Shown here piece after piece: positions 8,982 to 54,238 of a stretch of DNA of 64,000 nt. This DNA comes from Methylophaga sp. (GTDB taxonomy: Bacteria; Pseudomonadota; Gammaproteobacteria; Nitrosococcales; Methylophagaceae). The notes below the pieces were generated by a model. The model made no database searches. It was not told the origin of the DNA and was given only the letters and a program-made list of their open reading frames with translations. The position numbers and the translations under genes were made by a program. Location: positions 1 to 64,000 of the forward strand of contig DRHW01000003.1 of NCBI GenBank assembly GCA_011053005.1, read 5' to 3'. The number at the start of each line of letters is the position of its first letter. Within the stretch, counting starts at the first letter, position 1.

Positions 8982-9005
8982 GCATAGTTCAATATGCTTT
9001 TTTTT
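8982..9005 (+). terminator. Intrinsic terminator acting as riboswitch expression platform
   Basis: GCATA (8982-8986) and TATGC (8993-8997) form a short stem with a 6-base loop, followed by eight T. It sits between the aptamer and the btuM ribosome-binding site, so ligand binding could end transcription of the whole cluster here. The stem is only 5 bp, so efficiency is uncertain. Confidence 0.55.
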
Positions 9006-9039
9006 ACCCATGTGCGGGTCGGCACACTGGAGATTTTTC

Positions 9040-9621
9040 ATGCCTACTTTATCCAAACGTTATCAGTTCATTATTGGTTTTATTCTTATTGCTATTATGG
9101 CAATCACTCGTGGCCATCATTTTGCCACTCTCAGTCATCTTCCTAGTGCCACTTTAGCGTTATTTTTCCTTGCAGGTTTGTACTTGTCAGGTAAATGGAT
9201 GTTTGTTGTATTGTTAGCAGAAGCTGCATTGTTAGATTATCTATCGATGACATTCGCTGGCGGCAGTACTTTTTGTGCTTCACCCGCTTATGCTTTGTTA
9301 TTACCAGCCTATGGCATGCTTTATTTAGCAGGCCAATGGTACAAACAACGTTATCAGTATACTTGGTCTACTTTACTGCCCTTAACTGCTAGTTTGATCG
9401 TTGCAACTGCGATTAGTAAGGTCTTTTCCAGTGGTGGTTTCTACTTGTTTTCAGGTCGTTATACAGATCAAACATGGGTTGAATTTGGTGAGCGTTTTAT
9501 CAAATATTACCCATCATCATTATCGAGCCTTGCTTTTTATATTGCGATTGCGATGATTTGTCATGTACTAGTTGTTTCTCTTGCAAACACATCAACAAAA
9601 CAAAGCGGTCAACACTCTTGA
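9040..9621 (+). CDS. btuM: BtuM-type solitary ECF S-component for cobalamin uptake
   Basis: A 193-residue inner-membrane protein with about six hydrophobic segments. The start at 9040 has GGAG 8 bases upstream. Features I associate with BtuM are the N-terminal TRGHHFA, the SATLALFFLAGLYL segment and a cysteine at residue 79 in FCASPAYALLLPAY. Structural work on Thiobacillus denitrificans BtuM places a cobalt-binding Cys at almost the same position (Cys80). Known BtuM proteins import cobalamin without a dedicated ECF energising module. It is the first gene behind the riboswitch and would complete uptake after BtuB. Its stop overlaps the TTG proposed for cobB. Confidence 0.82.
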   Translation: MPTLSKRYQFIIGFILIAIMAITRGHHFATLSHLPSATLALFFLAGLYLSGKWMFVVLLAEAALLDYLSMTFAGGSTFCASPAYALLLPAYGMLYLAGQWYKQRYQYTWSTLLPLTASLIVATAISKVFSSGGFYLFSGRYTDQTWVEFGERFIKYYPSSLSSLAFYIAIAMICHVLVVSLANTSTKQSGQHS

Positions 9622-49961: not shown

Positions 49962-50549
49962 TTATCGCTTTAAAGCGATAGATTTGGCGTAGCCATATAC
50001 GCGAGGTGCCAACAAAATAACAAGTAGCGCTATATATATAAGTGGTTCGGTCTTATCTAATTTCACCAACATATAAAAATGTATTGAACTAGCAATCGCA
50101 ATGACATACGTTAATCGATGCAATTTCTTCCAACGTCGACCACCTAATCGCTTCACCATTGCATTATTAGAAGTTATTGCCAATGGAATTAAAGCGATAA
50201 AGCTAAAGAAACCAATGGTAATAAATGGCCGTTTGATTATATCGTTGATAATTTCACCGACAGCAAAAGACTGATCGAGCCCTAAATAAAGCAACATATG
50301 TAAAACAGCATAAAAAAATACGTAAAGACCTAATAATCGTCTGAATTTAATTAAGTCGTTCCAGCCGGTCATCCAGCGCAAAGGTGTAATTAATAAGGTT
50401 AACCATAAAAATCGCAAGGCCCAAAGGCCCGTTTGTCTGGTAACCGCTTCCACTGGATTAGCACCTAATTGATCGGTAAAAAGGGCAAACGTCAACCAAA
50501 TAGCTGGAATTAAGCAGACTACAAATAATAATTTTTTTATTTTCGGCAC
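49962..50549 (-). CDS. msrQ: MsrQ haem-binding membrane subunit of MsrPQ
   Basis: A 195-residue inner-membrane b-type haem protein (YedZ family) that passes electrons from the quinone pool or a flavin to MsrP. Six hydrophobic segments are visible; the haem histidines fit FFYAVLHMLLYLG and KLHRLTYVIAIASSIHF. It begins 24 bases after msrP, the usual order. Together they repair methionine sulfoxide in periplasmic proteins. Confidence 0.93.
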   Translation of the reverse strand: MPKIKKLLFVVCLIPAIWLTFALFTDQLGANPVEAVTRQTGLWALRFLWLTLLITPLRWMTGWNDLIKFRRLLGLYVFFYAVLHMLLYLGLDQSFAVGEIINDIIKRPFITIGFFSFIALIPLAITSNNAMVKRLGGRRWKKLHRLTYVIAIASSIHFYMLVKLDKTEPLIYIALLVILLAPRVYGYAKSIALKR

Positions 50550-50573: not shown

Positions 50574-51533
50574 TTAAAAGTATTTTCGTAAATCCATTCC
50601 GGTATACATCTGAGCGACTTGCTCACCATAACCATTAAACATTTCTGTTTTACGTTTCAGAAACTCGCCAATCCTACGTTCACGGCCTTGACTCCAGCGA
50701 GGATGATCAACGTCAGGATTCACATTAGAATAAAAACCATATTCGTTAGGCCCTGCTTTCATCCATGCTGATCGAGGCATATTTTCTACAAAACGAATGC
50801 GTACTATTGATTTAATACTTTTAAATCCATATTTCCATGGCACGACTAGTCTAATAGGCGCGCCGTTTTGGCCTAATAATTCATTACCATATAACCCAAC
50901 AGAAATCAGCGTTAATGGATTCATCGCCTCATCTATTCGTAAACCTTCAACATAGGGCCAATCTAATACATTTCGATTTAAGCCTGGCATTTGTTCAGGA
51001 TCATTCAAAGTCGTAAATTCAACAAATTTTGCTCGTGAATTAGGCTGTGCTTTTTTGATAAGATCCGCCAAAGGGAAACCAACCCAAGGAATAACCATTG
51101 ACCATCCTTCGACACAACGTAAGCGATAAATACGTTCCTCTAAACTAAACGGTTTAATTAAATCATCATAATCATACTCACCGGGCTTATCACATTCACC
51201 GTCAATGGTTACTCGCCAAGGCTTAGCTTTATCAGGAAATTCAGTGGCCATTAGTGCAGGAGAAGCTTTATCTGTGCCGAATTCATAAAAATTATTATAG
51301 GTTGTCACTGACTCAAAAGTCGTCAGGCTCTCCTCAGTCGAGTAAGCACTTTTAACGAGTTCCTTATAGGTCGGTTCCGGAGTAGAATCACCGCGAGCAA
51401 ATGACAACGGTAACATGCTGGCTGTAGCGGCTATCGCTGCACTATTCAAAAACTGTCTACGATTCAAATACACACCGTATTCCGTTATTTCACTTGCTGG
51501 TAACTCACCTAATCTAGGTTTTTTAATCAACAT
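50574..51533 (-). CDS. msrP: MsrP molybdenum-dependent methionine-sulfoxide reductase
   Basis: A 319-residue periplasmic molybdoprotein (YedY). It carries a Tat signal, NRRQFLN then a hydrophobic stretch ending near SFARG, for folded export. The Mo-binding Cys is in [38 protein letters not shown] is a strong family motif. ATG 51533 has AGGAG 8 bases upstream; a GTG two codons earlier is not preferred. It lies downstream of the DoxX-like gene on the same strand. Confidence 0.96.
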
Positions 51534-51562
51534 CACCACTTCTCCTAATTTTTATGTCTAAA

Positions 51563-52150
51563 CTACTTTGAATTTGAACAATGAGCCATTTTTTTAGCTA
51601 TCCAATAATCTGCACTGACATAATTGCCTGCACCAATAAAAAATAACGTGAGTAACATAATGAAATACGTCGTCGCAAACTCAATACCATTATTTAAAAT
51701 CACAAACCCACCATTTTGAGTCAGCCAATCGTAATTTCCATGTTCTTGTAATATTGAGCGTGCCATATCTAGCTGAGCACTCGGTTCAGCGATGGCTAAC
51801 CAACCATTTCCCCAATGCACCGTCACAGCAGCAACAATCATAGTCGTCATCAATGGAATACTGATCCAACGTACCGCTAAACCAAGTATAAGAAAAATGG
51901 CACCAAAATATTCAGCTCCCCATGCTAAGTAAGCCATGAGCTCAGGAAAGGGTAATCCGAGAGAATGCTCAAACCATTGAATAGTGCCACTCAATGAGCT
52001 TTCACTATCGAATGGATTCCACTTATTATTAGCAGCCATCCAAAATACGGGCGCTAAATATAACCTGACGGTTAATGGCGCTAAAAAATCTAACGCTCTA
52101 GTACTATTCAGCATATTCTGTAGACCAGCACTGAGCTTACAAATTGACAT
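51563..52150 (-). CDS. DoxX-family membrane protein, HvfX-like
   Basis: A 195-residue inner-membrane protein with four helices of the DoxX fold (about 25-45, 70-95, 102-120 and 160-180). ATG 52150 follows an excellent AGAAGGAGATAACA leader; a longer frame to 52207 would run through the terminator hairpin and is rejected. RLYLAPVFWMAANNKW and EYFGAIFLILGLAVRW are DoxX-like. Members beside HvfA-type peptides are named HvfX and linked to copper and RiPP maturation in database naming. Given the KCG-repeat peptide directly upstream I favour that subgroup, but the assignment is inference. Confidence 0.8.
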   Translation of the reverse strand: MSICKLSAGLQNMLNSTRALDFLAPLTVRLYLAPVFWMAANNKWNPFDSESSLSGTIQWFEHSLGLPFPELMAYLAWGAEYFGAIFLILGLAVRWISIPLMTTMIVAAVTVHWGNGWLAIAEPSAQLDMARSILQEHGNYDWLTQNGGFVILNNGIEFATTYFIMLLTLFFIGAGNYVSADYWIAKKMAHCSNSK

Positions 52151-52224: not shown

Positions 52225-52596
52225 TTATTTGTCGGCACCGCATTTGCCTTCTTTCATTTTTTCAGCTTTTTCTTTCATTTCGCTGCCGCATTTAGCTTCG
52301 TGTGCCGCTTTTTTATCAGCGCCACATTTTGCTTCATGTGCTGCTTTTTTATCTGCACCACATTTCGCTTCTTTCATTTTTTCAGCTTTTTTATCAGCGC
52401 CACATTTAGCTTCACCACACTTACCTTCCGCATCTTTATTTGTGCTTTCAGCAAGTTGCATATATCCGCTTGATAATTCAGTGTTACCAAATGGATTCAC
52501 ATCAGCACTCACTGTCATAGGAGATAGAGCCAAACCTGCTGTTAATGCTGCGCTAGCTGCTAATGCAATCGTTGTTTTTTTAGTCGTATTGGTCAT
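52225..52596 (-). CDS. Secreted Lys-Cys-Gly repeat peptide, HvfA-like RiPP metallophore precursor
   Basis: A 123-residue secreted peptide. Residues 1-31 are a signal peptide ending TVSA; then NPFGNTELSSGYMQLAE and a Cys-repeat tail with six copies of (E)-[GA]-K-C-G, several inside a 12-residue repeat KKAAHEAKCGAD. All six Cys lie in the same motif and there are no others. This matches the pattern I know for HvfA: leader, NPF...LSSGY...LA segment and EGKCG units whose Cys are turned into oxazolone-thioamide groups that bind copper. AGGAAA precedes the ATG. No maturase gene (MNIO/DUF692) is nearby, so modification is unproven. Confidence 0.8.
   Translation of the reverse strand: MTNTTKKTTIALAASAALTAGLALSPMTVSADVNPFGNTELSSGYMQLAESTNKDAEGKCGEAKCGADKKAEKMKEAKCGADKKAAHEAKCGADKKAAHEAKCGSEMKEKAEKMKEGKCGADK
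52297..52368 (-). repeat. Two 36-bp coding repeats in the KCG peptide gene
   Basis: 52297-52332 and 52333-52368 encode the same 12-residue unit (KKAAHEAKCGAD in rotated form). Partial units lie on both sides. The number of Cys motifs could change between strains by repeat gain or loss. Confidence 0.75.
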
Positions 52597-52671: not shown

Positions 52672-52699
52672 TAGACGGCTACCTAAATACATTGTTACA
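52672..52699 (-). promoter_or_regulatory. Candidate ECF-type promoter of the KCG peptide gene
   Basis: On the minus strand TGTAAC (52699-52694), a 16-base spacer and CGTCTA (52677-52672) form a -35/-10 pair of the ECF sigma type (AAC and CGTC cores). It lies about 75 bases before the ATG. Control by the ECF factor at 53388 is inference; I could not find an equally good copy at its own gene. Confidence 0.4.
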
Positions 52700-52973: not shown

Positions 52974-53279
52974 TCAATCTTCAGTTACTGATTCTTGATG
53001 CTCAGTCGCTGAATCTTCAACTTCACCTGTGACATCATGATCTGGTGACATTTCATCACTTTCAATAACATCATTTTCATCTTCCATCACAGAATCTTGA
53101 TGCTCAGTTGCAGATTTTTCAACCTCAGCCTCTGCAAGCTGTAGATATACAGTGGATGATTCAACCGTTGCAAAAGGATTTGCTTCAGCACTCGCAGTCA
53201 TAGGTGATATAGCCAATCCAGCTGATAATGCTGCACTCGTTAGTAAACTGATCGTCATTTTCTTAGTCGTAATTAGCAT
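52974..53279 (-). CDS. Secreted acidic peptide, Cys-free paralogue of the KCG peptide
   Basis: A 101-residue secreted protein. Its signal and mature N-terminus (TISLLTSAALSAGLAISPMTASA, then NPFATVESSTVYLQLAE) closely follow those of the KCG peptide at 52225, and the two ribosome-binding regions (AGGAAATTA) are alike, so the genes are duplicates. The tail is different: no Cys, many Asp/Glu, several Met, and the unit SATEHQxSVxED twice. After the TGA stop the frame stays open for 14 more codons (MDTASK... to EME) before TAA, so a recent stop mutation is possible. Function unknown; metal binding by acidic or Met residues is conceivable. Confidence 0.72.
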   Translation of the reverse strand: MLITTKKMTISLLTSAALSAGLAISPMTASAEANPFATVESSTVYLQLAEAEVEKSATEHQDSVMEDENDVIESDEMSPDHDVTGEVEDSATEHQESVTED

Positions 53280-53387: not shown

Positions 53388-53993
53388 ATGAAATCAAATG
53401 TAAAAGAGCTAGACGAGCAAACCCTCATCGCCGCTCTTATCGATGGTAATGAACAAGCTTTTGAGTTAATTGTTTCTAATTATCATAATCTTATGCTCGC
53501 CGTTTCTCGCGCAATTGTTGGCGAAGCCTTTGCTGATGAGGTCGTTCAAGATGCATGGATGTCAGCAATTAAAGCCTTGCCAAAATTTGAAGGTCGCTCA
53601 TCGTTGAAAACATGGTTGCTGCATATCGTCAGTAATGGTGCTAAAAGTCGGGTTCGTAGAGAAAACAGAATGGTTTCACTTGATGATGGTTGGCAGTCTG
53701 TATCTTCTGACAAATTTGATAATACCGGTCACCGGTTAGAAGAATTATTACCTTGGGAAGAAGCAACGCCCGAAGCATTATTGGCCAATGAACAACTACA
53801 AGCAGCGATTGAAGCAACATACCAAAAACTCCCCGCTTTGCAACGTGCTGCATTAACAATGTACGACATGGAAGGTCTAAGCATGGAAGACGTTTGTAAC
53901 ATTCTTGACATCTCTGCGTCTAACGCACGGGTTTTACTGCACAGGGCCCGCACATCTTTACATCAGTGCATTGATACATTTCAGGACAAATAA
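53388..53993 (+). CDS. RNA polymerase ECF sigma factor
   Basis: A 201-residue sigma-70 family factor of the extracytoplasmic type, only regions 2 and 4. Region 2 spans about 25-95 (EQAFELIVSNYHNLMLAVSRAIVG ... FADEVVQDAWMSAIKALPKFEGRSSLKTWLLHI), region 4 about 140-195 (LPALQRAALTMYDMEGLSMEDVCNILDISASNARVLLHRAR). The linker is acidic and longer than average. It is divergent from the acidic peptide gene (108 bases between) and followed after 5 bases by the anti-sigma gene. I infer that it drives the peptide/doxX/msrPQ genes. Confidence 0.92.
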   Translation: MKSNVKELDEQTLIAALIDGNEQAFELIVSNYHNLMLAVSRAIVGEAFADEVVQDAWMSAIKALPKFEGRSSLKTWLLHIVSNGAKSRVRRENRMVSLDDGWQSVSSDKFDNTGHRLEELLPWEEATPEALLANEQLQAAIEATYQKLPALQRAALTMYDMEGLSMEDVCNILDISASNARVLLHRARTSLHQCIDTFQDK

Positions 53994-53998
53994 GTAAG

Positions 53999-54238
53999 AT
54001 GATTAAATGTAAAGACGTACCAGAACAAGCCAGTGACTACTTAGATGGCGAGCTAACTTTCCGTAAACGTATTGCGCTGCGTTTTCATCTGCTAATTTGT
54101 CACTCTTGCCGTACTTACGTACAGCAGATCCGCAATACAATAAAAACAGTCAAAGTATTACAACCGAAAGAAAAAAATGCTTTAGATACTTGCCCGTTAA
54201 TCAAAAAATTTCGTGAGCTGACTAAAAAACAGGACTAA
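53999..54238 (+). CDS. Small zinc-finger anti-sigma factor (ZAS/zf-HC2)
   Basis: A 79-residue protein with no membrane segment. The zinc site is H30-x3-C34-x2-C37 in HLLICHSC with Cys4 upstream, the ZAS pattern found in redox- or metal-sensing anti-sigma factors. The YLDGEL motif near the start is typical. As a soluble ZAS protein it would sense the stress in the cytosol by thiol oxidation or metal exchange and free the sigma factor. Its stop overlaps the end of the convergent DUF1244 gene by 4 bases. Confidence 0.85.
   Translation: MIKCKDVPEQASDYLDGELTFRKRIALRFHLLICHSCRTYVQQIRNTIKTVKVLQPKEKNALDTCPLIKKFRELTKKQD

Follow-up and report, generated by a model that had tools for sequence, protein, structure and literature searches.

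Results

A cysteine-repeat precursor gene lies beside hvfX, msrPQ and a divergent sigma factor gene

The DNA analysed in this study (the window) comprises the first 64,000 nucleotides of contig DRHW01000003.1 from Methylophaga sp. (assembly GCA_011053005.1). An open reading frame on its reverse strand (52225-52596), starting with ATG, encodes a peptide whose six cysteines all stand in the context E-[GA]-K-C-G, two of them in EGKCG and four in EAKCG, just as the initial annotation had described. This gene and the features surrounding it are, in order of position:

49962-50549, minus strand: msrQ, encoding the haem-binding membrane partner of MsrP (NF003831, 186.7 bits, cut-off 130)
50574-51539, minus strand: msrP, encoding a periplasmic molybdopterin methionine sulfoxide reductase (NF003767, 463.1 bits, cut-off 207)
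51563-52150, minus strand: hvfX, DoxX family (NF050144, 214.6 bits, cut-off 80)
52225-52596, minus strand: hvfA-like gene for a KCG precursor peptide of 123 amino acids with six cysteines in EGKCG/EAKCG (NF050137)
52674-52699, minus strand: putative ECF promoter driving the hvfA operon, with the sequence TGTAACA-N16-GTC and a TA after it; 34 of 35 family relatives have it in exact form
52974-53279, minus strand: cysteine-less duplicate of hvfA
53388-53993, plus strand: gene for an ECF sigma factor, oriented divergently to the hvfA operon (TIGR02937, 78 bits, cut-off 42.9)
53895-53920, plus strand: putative promoter inside the sigma factor gene, TGTAACA-N16-GTC, directed toward the anti-sigma factor gene, found in 25 of 32 relatives and under synonymous constraint
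53999-54238, plus strand: zinc-finger anti-sigma factor gene (NF052368, 64.1 bits, cut-off 50)

The peptide matches the KCG domain model of the HvfA family (NCBIfam NF050137) with 54.5 bits (cut-off 19.5). It stays below the cut-off of the full-length HvfA equivalog NF050188 (26.6 bits vs 95) and is therefore classed as an HvfA-family KCG precursor rather than a strict HvfA equivalog. Its N-terminus, like those of its listed relatives, resembles a signal peptide as judged by eye. The DNA pattern for E[GA]KCG, GARGSNAARTGYGG, has six matches in the 2.89-Mb genome, all of them within this reading frame, and none when read backwards, so that the six-fold repeat is not a product of chance. A search of the whole genome with NF050137 at E <= 10 found no second KCG gene. 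The best reading of the gene is a RiPP precursor of the HvfA/oxazolin type that is apparently secreted.

The DoxX-like gene previously seen as the nearest linked gene indeed holds this position and encodes a member of the HvfX family (its start was set at the ATG that agrees with the aligned relatives), but MsrP, MsrQ, the ECF sigma/anti-sigma pair and the cysteine-less duplicate had gone unnamed. A good match to the sigma factor gene is found at the same place in 32 of 35 relatives. The anti-sigma factor of the window displays Cys4 followed by His30-x3-Cys34-x2-Cys37; among its relatives, 32 of 33 contain HxxxCxxC, and 31 of 33 have the N-terminal cysteine at an equal distance. The duplicate at 52974-53279 shares the leader region of hvfA, to which only its first 51 residues align, and has no exact TGTAACA-N16-GTC before it; it seems to be the degenerated end of a tandem hvfA duplication. 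In Methylophaga sp. LH_M6 (L173), the matching first hvfA copy keeps two KCG motifs, and the region between the two KCG copies (9000-9506) contains fragments of hvfX and the sigma factor gene as duplication debris.

The maturase pair is encoded at a second locus

The initial annotation regarded the peptide as being without its maturase. The window does lack an MNIO gene, because the only PF05114 (MNIO) match in the genome is located on a different contig (C12). However, this view is incorrect at the level of the genome, because a maturase pair lies elsewhere: the C12 gene reaches 441.5 bits with the HvfB model (cut-off 360), and the gene next to and overlapping it reaches 304.2 bits with the HvfC model (cut-off 142). 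An MNIO and its DUF2063 partner are thus present in the same genome as the KCG gene, although not in the same gene cluster. Of the possibilities raised earlier, a maturase located elsewhere was the right one, with the genome encoding one HvfB/HvfC pair, on C12. The two genes are flanked by icd and eda-edd, and no precursor-like reading frame was seen beside them, so that the pair is not, as had been considered, an MNIO locus with a precursor of its own. Most of the HvfB sequence from C12 can be aligned with 3bww, a structurally solved MNIO, and the two share a VDTHG stretch. For the characterised HvfB, residues N175, D242 and H244 are described as essential, and HvfA carrying its signal peptide as the better substrate (PMC13419390).

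The KCG gene and HvfB co-occur across genomes

The distribution of these genes was determined in 43 genomes of the order, each at least 90% complete. A KCG gene (E <= 0.01) is present in 37 of them, and HvfB scores above its cut-off in the same 37; the six genomes without the one (G002, G037, G039-G042) are also those without the other, and at the thresholds used no genome among the 43 has a KCG gene without HvfB. A second, lower-scoring MNIO occurs in eleven genomes of the order and is absent from that of the window. These data bear on the earlier suggestion that the peptide may act unmodified, as a plain periplasmic sponge that captures copper or oxidants with its free thiols. In its favour, among 2,583 complete genomes carrying Buf_EGKCG genes, 67 were reported to be without MNIO genes (PMC12452194, Table 3), and in a sample of 377 genomes from the class, 5 of the 102 genomes with a KCG gene have no HvfB above the cut-off, two of which hold a lower-scoring MNIO and three none at E <= 1e-60. 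Nevertheless, given the strict pairing in the order, and with searches of this genome revealing no second KCG substrate for its HvfB, we consider free-thiol action very unlikely.

In the class sample, HvfB scores above the cut-off in 123 genomes, 97 of which also contain the KCG gene. The remaining 26 have no KCG match at E <= 0.001, yet one of them, G012, gave a weaker match in the order search. With exceptions on both sides, KCG and HvfB are less strictly paired outside the order.

It had also been proposed that the DoxX protein has a role in the chemistry. Consistent with this idea, HvfX is the direct neighbour of the precursor, and it scores above the cut-off in 35 of the 43 genomes of the order, all of them among the 37 with hvfA and hvfB. 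However, HvfX is the usual fourth member of the hvf genes, and hvfA and hvfB are kept in two genomes without an HvfX match above the cut-off, namely G038 and G015, the latter of which is missing the gene; in G012, hvfX is broken into two pieces, one of them with stops. Moreover, the published modification of HvfA is attributed to HvfBC, with HvfX described as still uncharacterised (PMC13419390). That HvfX replaces the maturase or performs its reaction is hardly credible in light of these observations.

Linkage was assessed in the 73 of the 102 KCG genomes of the class sample that had rows listed. Of these, 70 have a listed HvfB above the cut-off, located within 10 kb of the KCG gene in 60 cases and not so in 10. 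Among the latter, G208 proved to be linked after all through a second KCG reading frame, and in G186 and G197 a gene stands at a contig end. Five other unlinked cases were inspected (G401, G138, G267, G382 and G174): no HvfX-like gene was seen in G267, whereas the remaining four have one that accompanies hvfBC and not hvfA, with two of these genes only 28-29% identical. In G401 (L163), which lies outside the family, the order is hvfX-hvfBC-msrPQ, and the KCG gene is on another contig.

The separation into two loci is conserved throughout the family

The family, which we infer to be Methylophagaceae, is represented by 36 genomes with the genes, and all 36 show the same two-locus layout, with hvfA-hvfX-msrP-msrQ at one site and a separate hvfB-hvfC pair at the other. 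Among the named relatives listed, the closest belong to Methylophaga and to other Methylophagaceae. The KCG gene and hvfB lie on different contigs in 28 of these genomes, which in draft assemblies does not prove distance, and on one contig in the other eight, where they are about 49 kb or more apart. None of the fetched hvfA loci contains hvfB, and none of the fetched hvfB loci contains hvfA. The gene order around hvfA, with gaps in some genomes, is ispH, two ABC genes, DUF1244, the divergent anti-sigma and sigma factor genes, hvfA, hvfX, msrP, msrQ and aceE. At the other site, hvfBC is followed by eda in 33 of 35 relatives and in the genome of the window.

A different arrangement prevails outside the family. 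Among the best 80 of at least 518 named HvfX relatives, some of which overlap with the family genomes, 24 loci are of the family type (with msrP and without hvfB), and 22 of these hold the KCG gene, the sigma factor gene and the promoter-like motif described below, whereas the contigs of the remaining two begin at or inside hvfX. The other 56 loci include 34 with a KCG reading frame, 31 of which also carry hvfB; the order is KCG-hvfB-hvfC-hvfX in 27 of these 31 and in one more with two KCG reading frames, and KCG-hvfX-hvfB-hvfC in three. The usual order outside the family is thus hvfA-hvfB-hvfC-hvfX. In a midpoint-rooted tree of 71 HvfB sequences, the 36 family members fall on one side of a branch with a support of 100/99. 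The simplest history is that hvfBC was probably removed once, in the ancestor of Methylophagaceae, from between hvfA and hvfX in a standard hvfABCX operon and transferred to a second, fixed place.

The two loci share a promoter-like motif

Exact copies of TGTAACA-N16-GTC stand upstream of hvfA in 35 of 36 family genomes, and upstream of the distant hvfB in 34 of 36, in both cases including the genome of the window, although these counts are not independent, given that the genomes are related. The initial counts in the fetched loci were 32 of 36 for hvfA and 32 of 36 for hvfB, each set including a locus from outside the family (L113 and L115, respectively). With wider upstream stretches, taken only at the eight loci that had failed at first, the motif was also detected at L095 and L097 (hvfA) and at L145 (hvfB), and sites with one mismatch exist at L088 (hvfA of G012) and at L139 and L150 (hvfB).

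The exact motif was not found before any of 13 control genes, with 25-36 loci inspected for each; when one mismatch was tolerated, ispH and trmB, out of nine control genes, gave a match, at one locus each. It stands before hvfX at one of 33 loci, presumably L099, whose over-long hvfX reading frame starts inside hvfA. When spacings of 8-25 were tried, 32 hvfB loci matched at 16 and one at 8, and 32 hvfA loci matched at 16, 7 at 12 and 3 at 22. In the fetched loci, 1.96 Mb of strand contain 94 exact motifs, 89 of which lie at hvfA, at hvfB or inside the sigma factor gene. Among the named HvfX loci, the exact motif is present in all 22 of the family type that extend past hvfX and in none of the 56 others. 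The genome of the window alone contains 9 matches, as opposed to 7 for the backwards pattern, which corresponds to background, so that the case for the motif is carried by its conservation. The other matches in this genome, at C3:71037, C5:33871, C26:47439 and C34:72087, fall within genes or abut them, and a well-placed one before the gene for an FAD-dependent protein (C16:43014-44348) was dismissed as a chance occurrence, with the motif found at 0 of 24 other fetched homologues.

The separation of the hvf genes does not need regulation through a shared motif, since G038, a member of another family of the order, has hvfA and hvfB 62 kb apart on one contig without an exact motif, its best sites showing one mismatch at hvfB and four at hvfA.

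The motif recurs inside the sigma factor gene and before a third candidate target

The copy of the motif inside the sigma factor gene (53895-53920) ends 78 bases before the start of the anti-sigma factor gene. In the 33 sigma factor genes compared, the codons that make up its -35 box are strongly fixed (TGT in 33 of 33, AAC in 29 of 32 and ATT in 32 of 33), with a mean codon agreement of 0.54 over 78 conserved codon columns of the same genes. Asparagine is encoded by AAC rather than its synonym in a ratio of 29 to 3 at this position and of 78 to 184 elsewhere in these genes (Fisher p = 2e-11), a value that serves only as a guide because the sequences are related and that pertains to a site chosen because it held the motif. 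Similarly, 30 of 32 sigma factor genes have a G at the end of the codon that contributes the G of GTC. The fixation of synonymous codons argues for selection at the DNA level and points to a feedback promoter that would raise the level of the anti-sigma factor, although amino-acid constraint could account for part of the conservation.

A candidate for a third member of the regulon is a small, secreted-looking protein containing histidine and methionine (C16:170498-170839; L159 1583-1924), whose gene is preceded by TGTAAC-N17-GTC. This motif is found upstream of all ten homologues, the nine others coming from the 37 family genomes searched and all belonging to one genus, with a looser -35 box that reads TGTAACT in seven of the ten.

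An alternative explanation is that the distant maturase does act on the peptide while the sigma factor is not the controller, with the motif belonging to another regulator or representing an ancestral relic devoid of function. Movement of hvfBC together with its upstream DNA would be expected to leave such a copied promoter. Moreover, G007 (L083) and G015 (L091) retain exact motifs before both hvfA and hvfB even though the sigma factor gene is missing at its usual place, and G012 (L088), which has only a piece of it, retains the exact motif before hvfB. However, the boxes and their spacing are conserved across loci while the 16-base spacer varies, and the motif recurs inside the sigma factor gene and, in its looser form, at every homologue of the third small-protein gene. 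In addition, the hvfA site of G012 does contain a mismatch. On balance, we regard this explanation as rather unlikely.

Discussion

With the enzyme encoded elsewhere in the genome and matching promoter-like sites at both loci, the KCG peptide seems to belong to a copper and oxidant defence pathway divided between two sites of the genome, and not to be an orphan. We consider it quite likely, judging from the sequence evidence, that an HvfA-type precursor and the remote maturase HvfB-HvfC work together and that one ECF sigma factor drives both halves. In the proposed pathway, the zinc-type anti-sigma factor would hold the ECF sigma factor encoded divergently beside hvfA until copper or oxidant stress in the periplasm triggers its release. 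The free sigma factor may then read the shared motif and drive the expression of hvfA-hvfX-msrP-msrQ and of the remote hvfB-hvfC. In the cytoplasm, HvfBC would convert the six cysteines of the peptide into copper-binding thiooxazoles, with a predicted mass change of about -24 Da in all (calculated unmodified masses are 12,690.4 Da at full length and 9,700.9 Da for cleavage at an assumed site before DVNPF), and the modified peptide would leave the cell via Sec to hold copper in the periplasm, where MsrPQ would repair oxidised methionines. The putative promoter inside the sigma factor gene may raise the level of the anti-sigma factor and, in this way, close a negative feedback loop. A broader version of this proposal, to which we attach moderate confidence, is that this RiPP pathway has been split throughout the history of the family, with an ECF sigma factor that has an internal anti-sigma promoter as the sole link between its parts, and that it has gained a third, genus-specific small secreted protein.

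A close known counterpart is the HvfABCX/oxazolin (captophorin) system of nontypeable Haemophilus influenzae, which likewise combines the MNIO HvfB, HvfC and HvfX with a KCG-repeat peptide; the repeats follow a secretion signal at the N-terminus, a putative one in the peptide of the window. The hvf genes of H. influenzae are described as one operon (PMC13419390), whereas in the present genome hvfA-hvfX is found on one contig and hvfB-hvfC on another, with msrP-msrQ following hvfX. KCG peptides have been reported to carry thiooxazoles and to bind copper (PMC13097082). In E. coli, MsrPQ is described as copper-induced and as repairing the copper chaperone CusF (PMC9302797), and a few EGKCG clusters are reported to hold molybdopterin and ferric-reductase genes (PMC12452194).

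The predicted control also has precedents. RpoE2 of H. influenzae is reported to control the hvf cluster, msrAB and mtsZ after exposure to hypochlorite (PMC7907618), and meningococcal sigma-E controls an operon with a doxX gene as well as msrA/B, with its activity described as unchanged by the oxidants tested (PMC2893595). As described in these reports, both RpoE2-HrsE and sigma-E-MseR pair an ECF sigma factor with a small anti-sigma factor, which is of the zinc type in Neisseria, and link hvf or doxX genes to methionine sulfoxide repair. The residues Cys4, His30, Cys34 and Cys37 of the anti-sigma factor in the window correspond to the positions described for MseR (PMC2893595), and a CGTCTA-like -10 box is shared with Neisseria. 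By contrast, the -35 box and the spacing found here differ from the -35 sequence GTMAGBWTT and the spacer of 12-13 in Neisseria. The system of Methylophagaceae further departs from these regulons in its two separate target operons and in the candidate promoter inside the sigma factor gene, with its control being predicted. Its repair enzyme is MsrPQ in place of the MsrAB of the RpoE2 and sigma-E regulons. In Azospira, MrpX is a secreted sulfur-rich peptide that is expressed together with MsrPQ under an ECF sigma factor. Unlike the KCG peptide, MrpX is methionine-rich and is not known to need a maturase.

The bufferins (Buf1/Buf2) and the gig operon of Cupriavidus share the combination of an MNIO, a DUF2063 protein, a DoxX protein and a precursor, and sigma factor genes are described in Buf1 clusters and beside gig, as is the case beside hvfA here (PMC12452194, PMC10304878). 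However, the precursor of the window contains repeated KCG motifs and not the cysteine patterns of Buf1 or Buf2, and its anti-sigma factor is of the zinc-finger type.

Precursors have been noted to be potentially unlinked from MNIO genes, and a survey from 2025 left open whether bufferin-type precursors without a nearby MNIO are modified by a distant enzyme or remain unmodified (PMC12452194, section 20). For one whole family, co-occurrence, uniqueness and the shared motif provide a testable answer, namely that the precursor is paired with the distant enzyme. Split pathways of this kind can escape RiPP mining that relies on gene clusters. The predicted regulon would moreover join the synthesis of a copper-binding peptide with the repair of periplasmic methionines, and it provides an example of a promoter within a coding sequence through which a sigma factor may come under negative feedback. 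In the literature searched, which included few subscription journals, we found no description of such a split with shared control; the constant split across the family, the promoter motif common to its two halves and the motif inside the sigma factor gene are new as far as our searches show. Outside the family, one locus (L236) carries KCG-hvfBC-hvfX-msrPQ, with msrPQ following the linked set of hvf genes.
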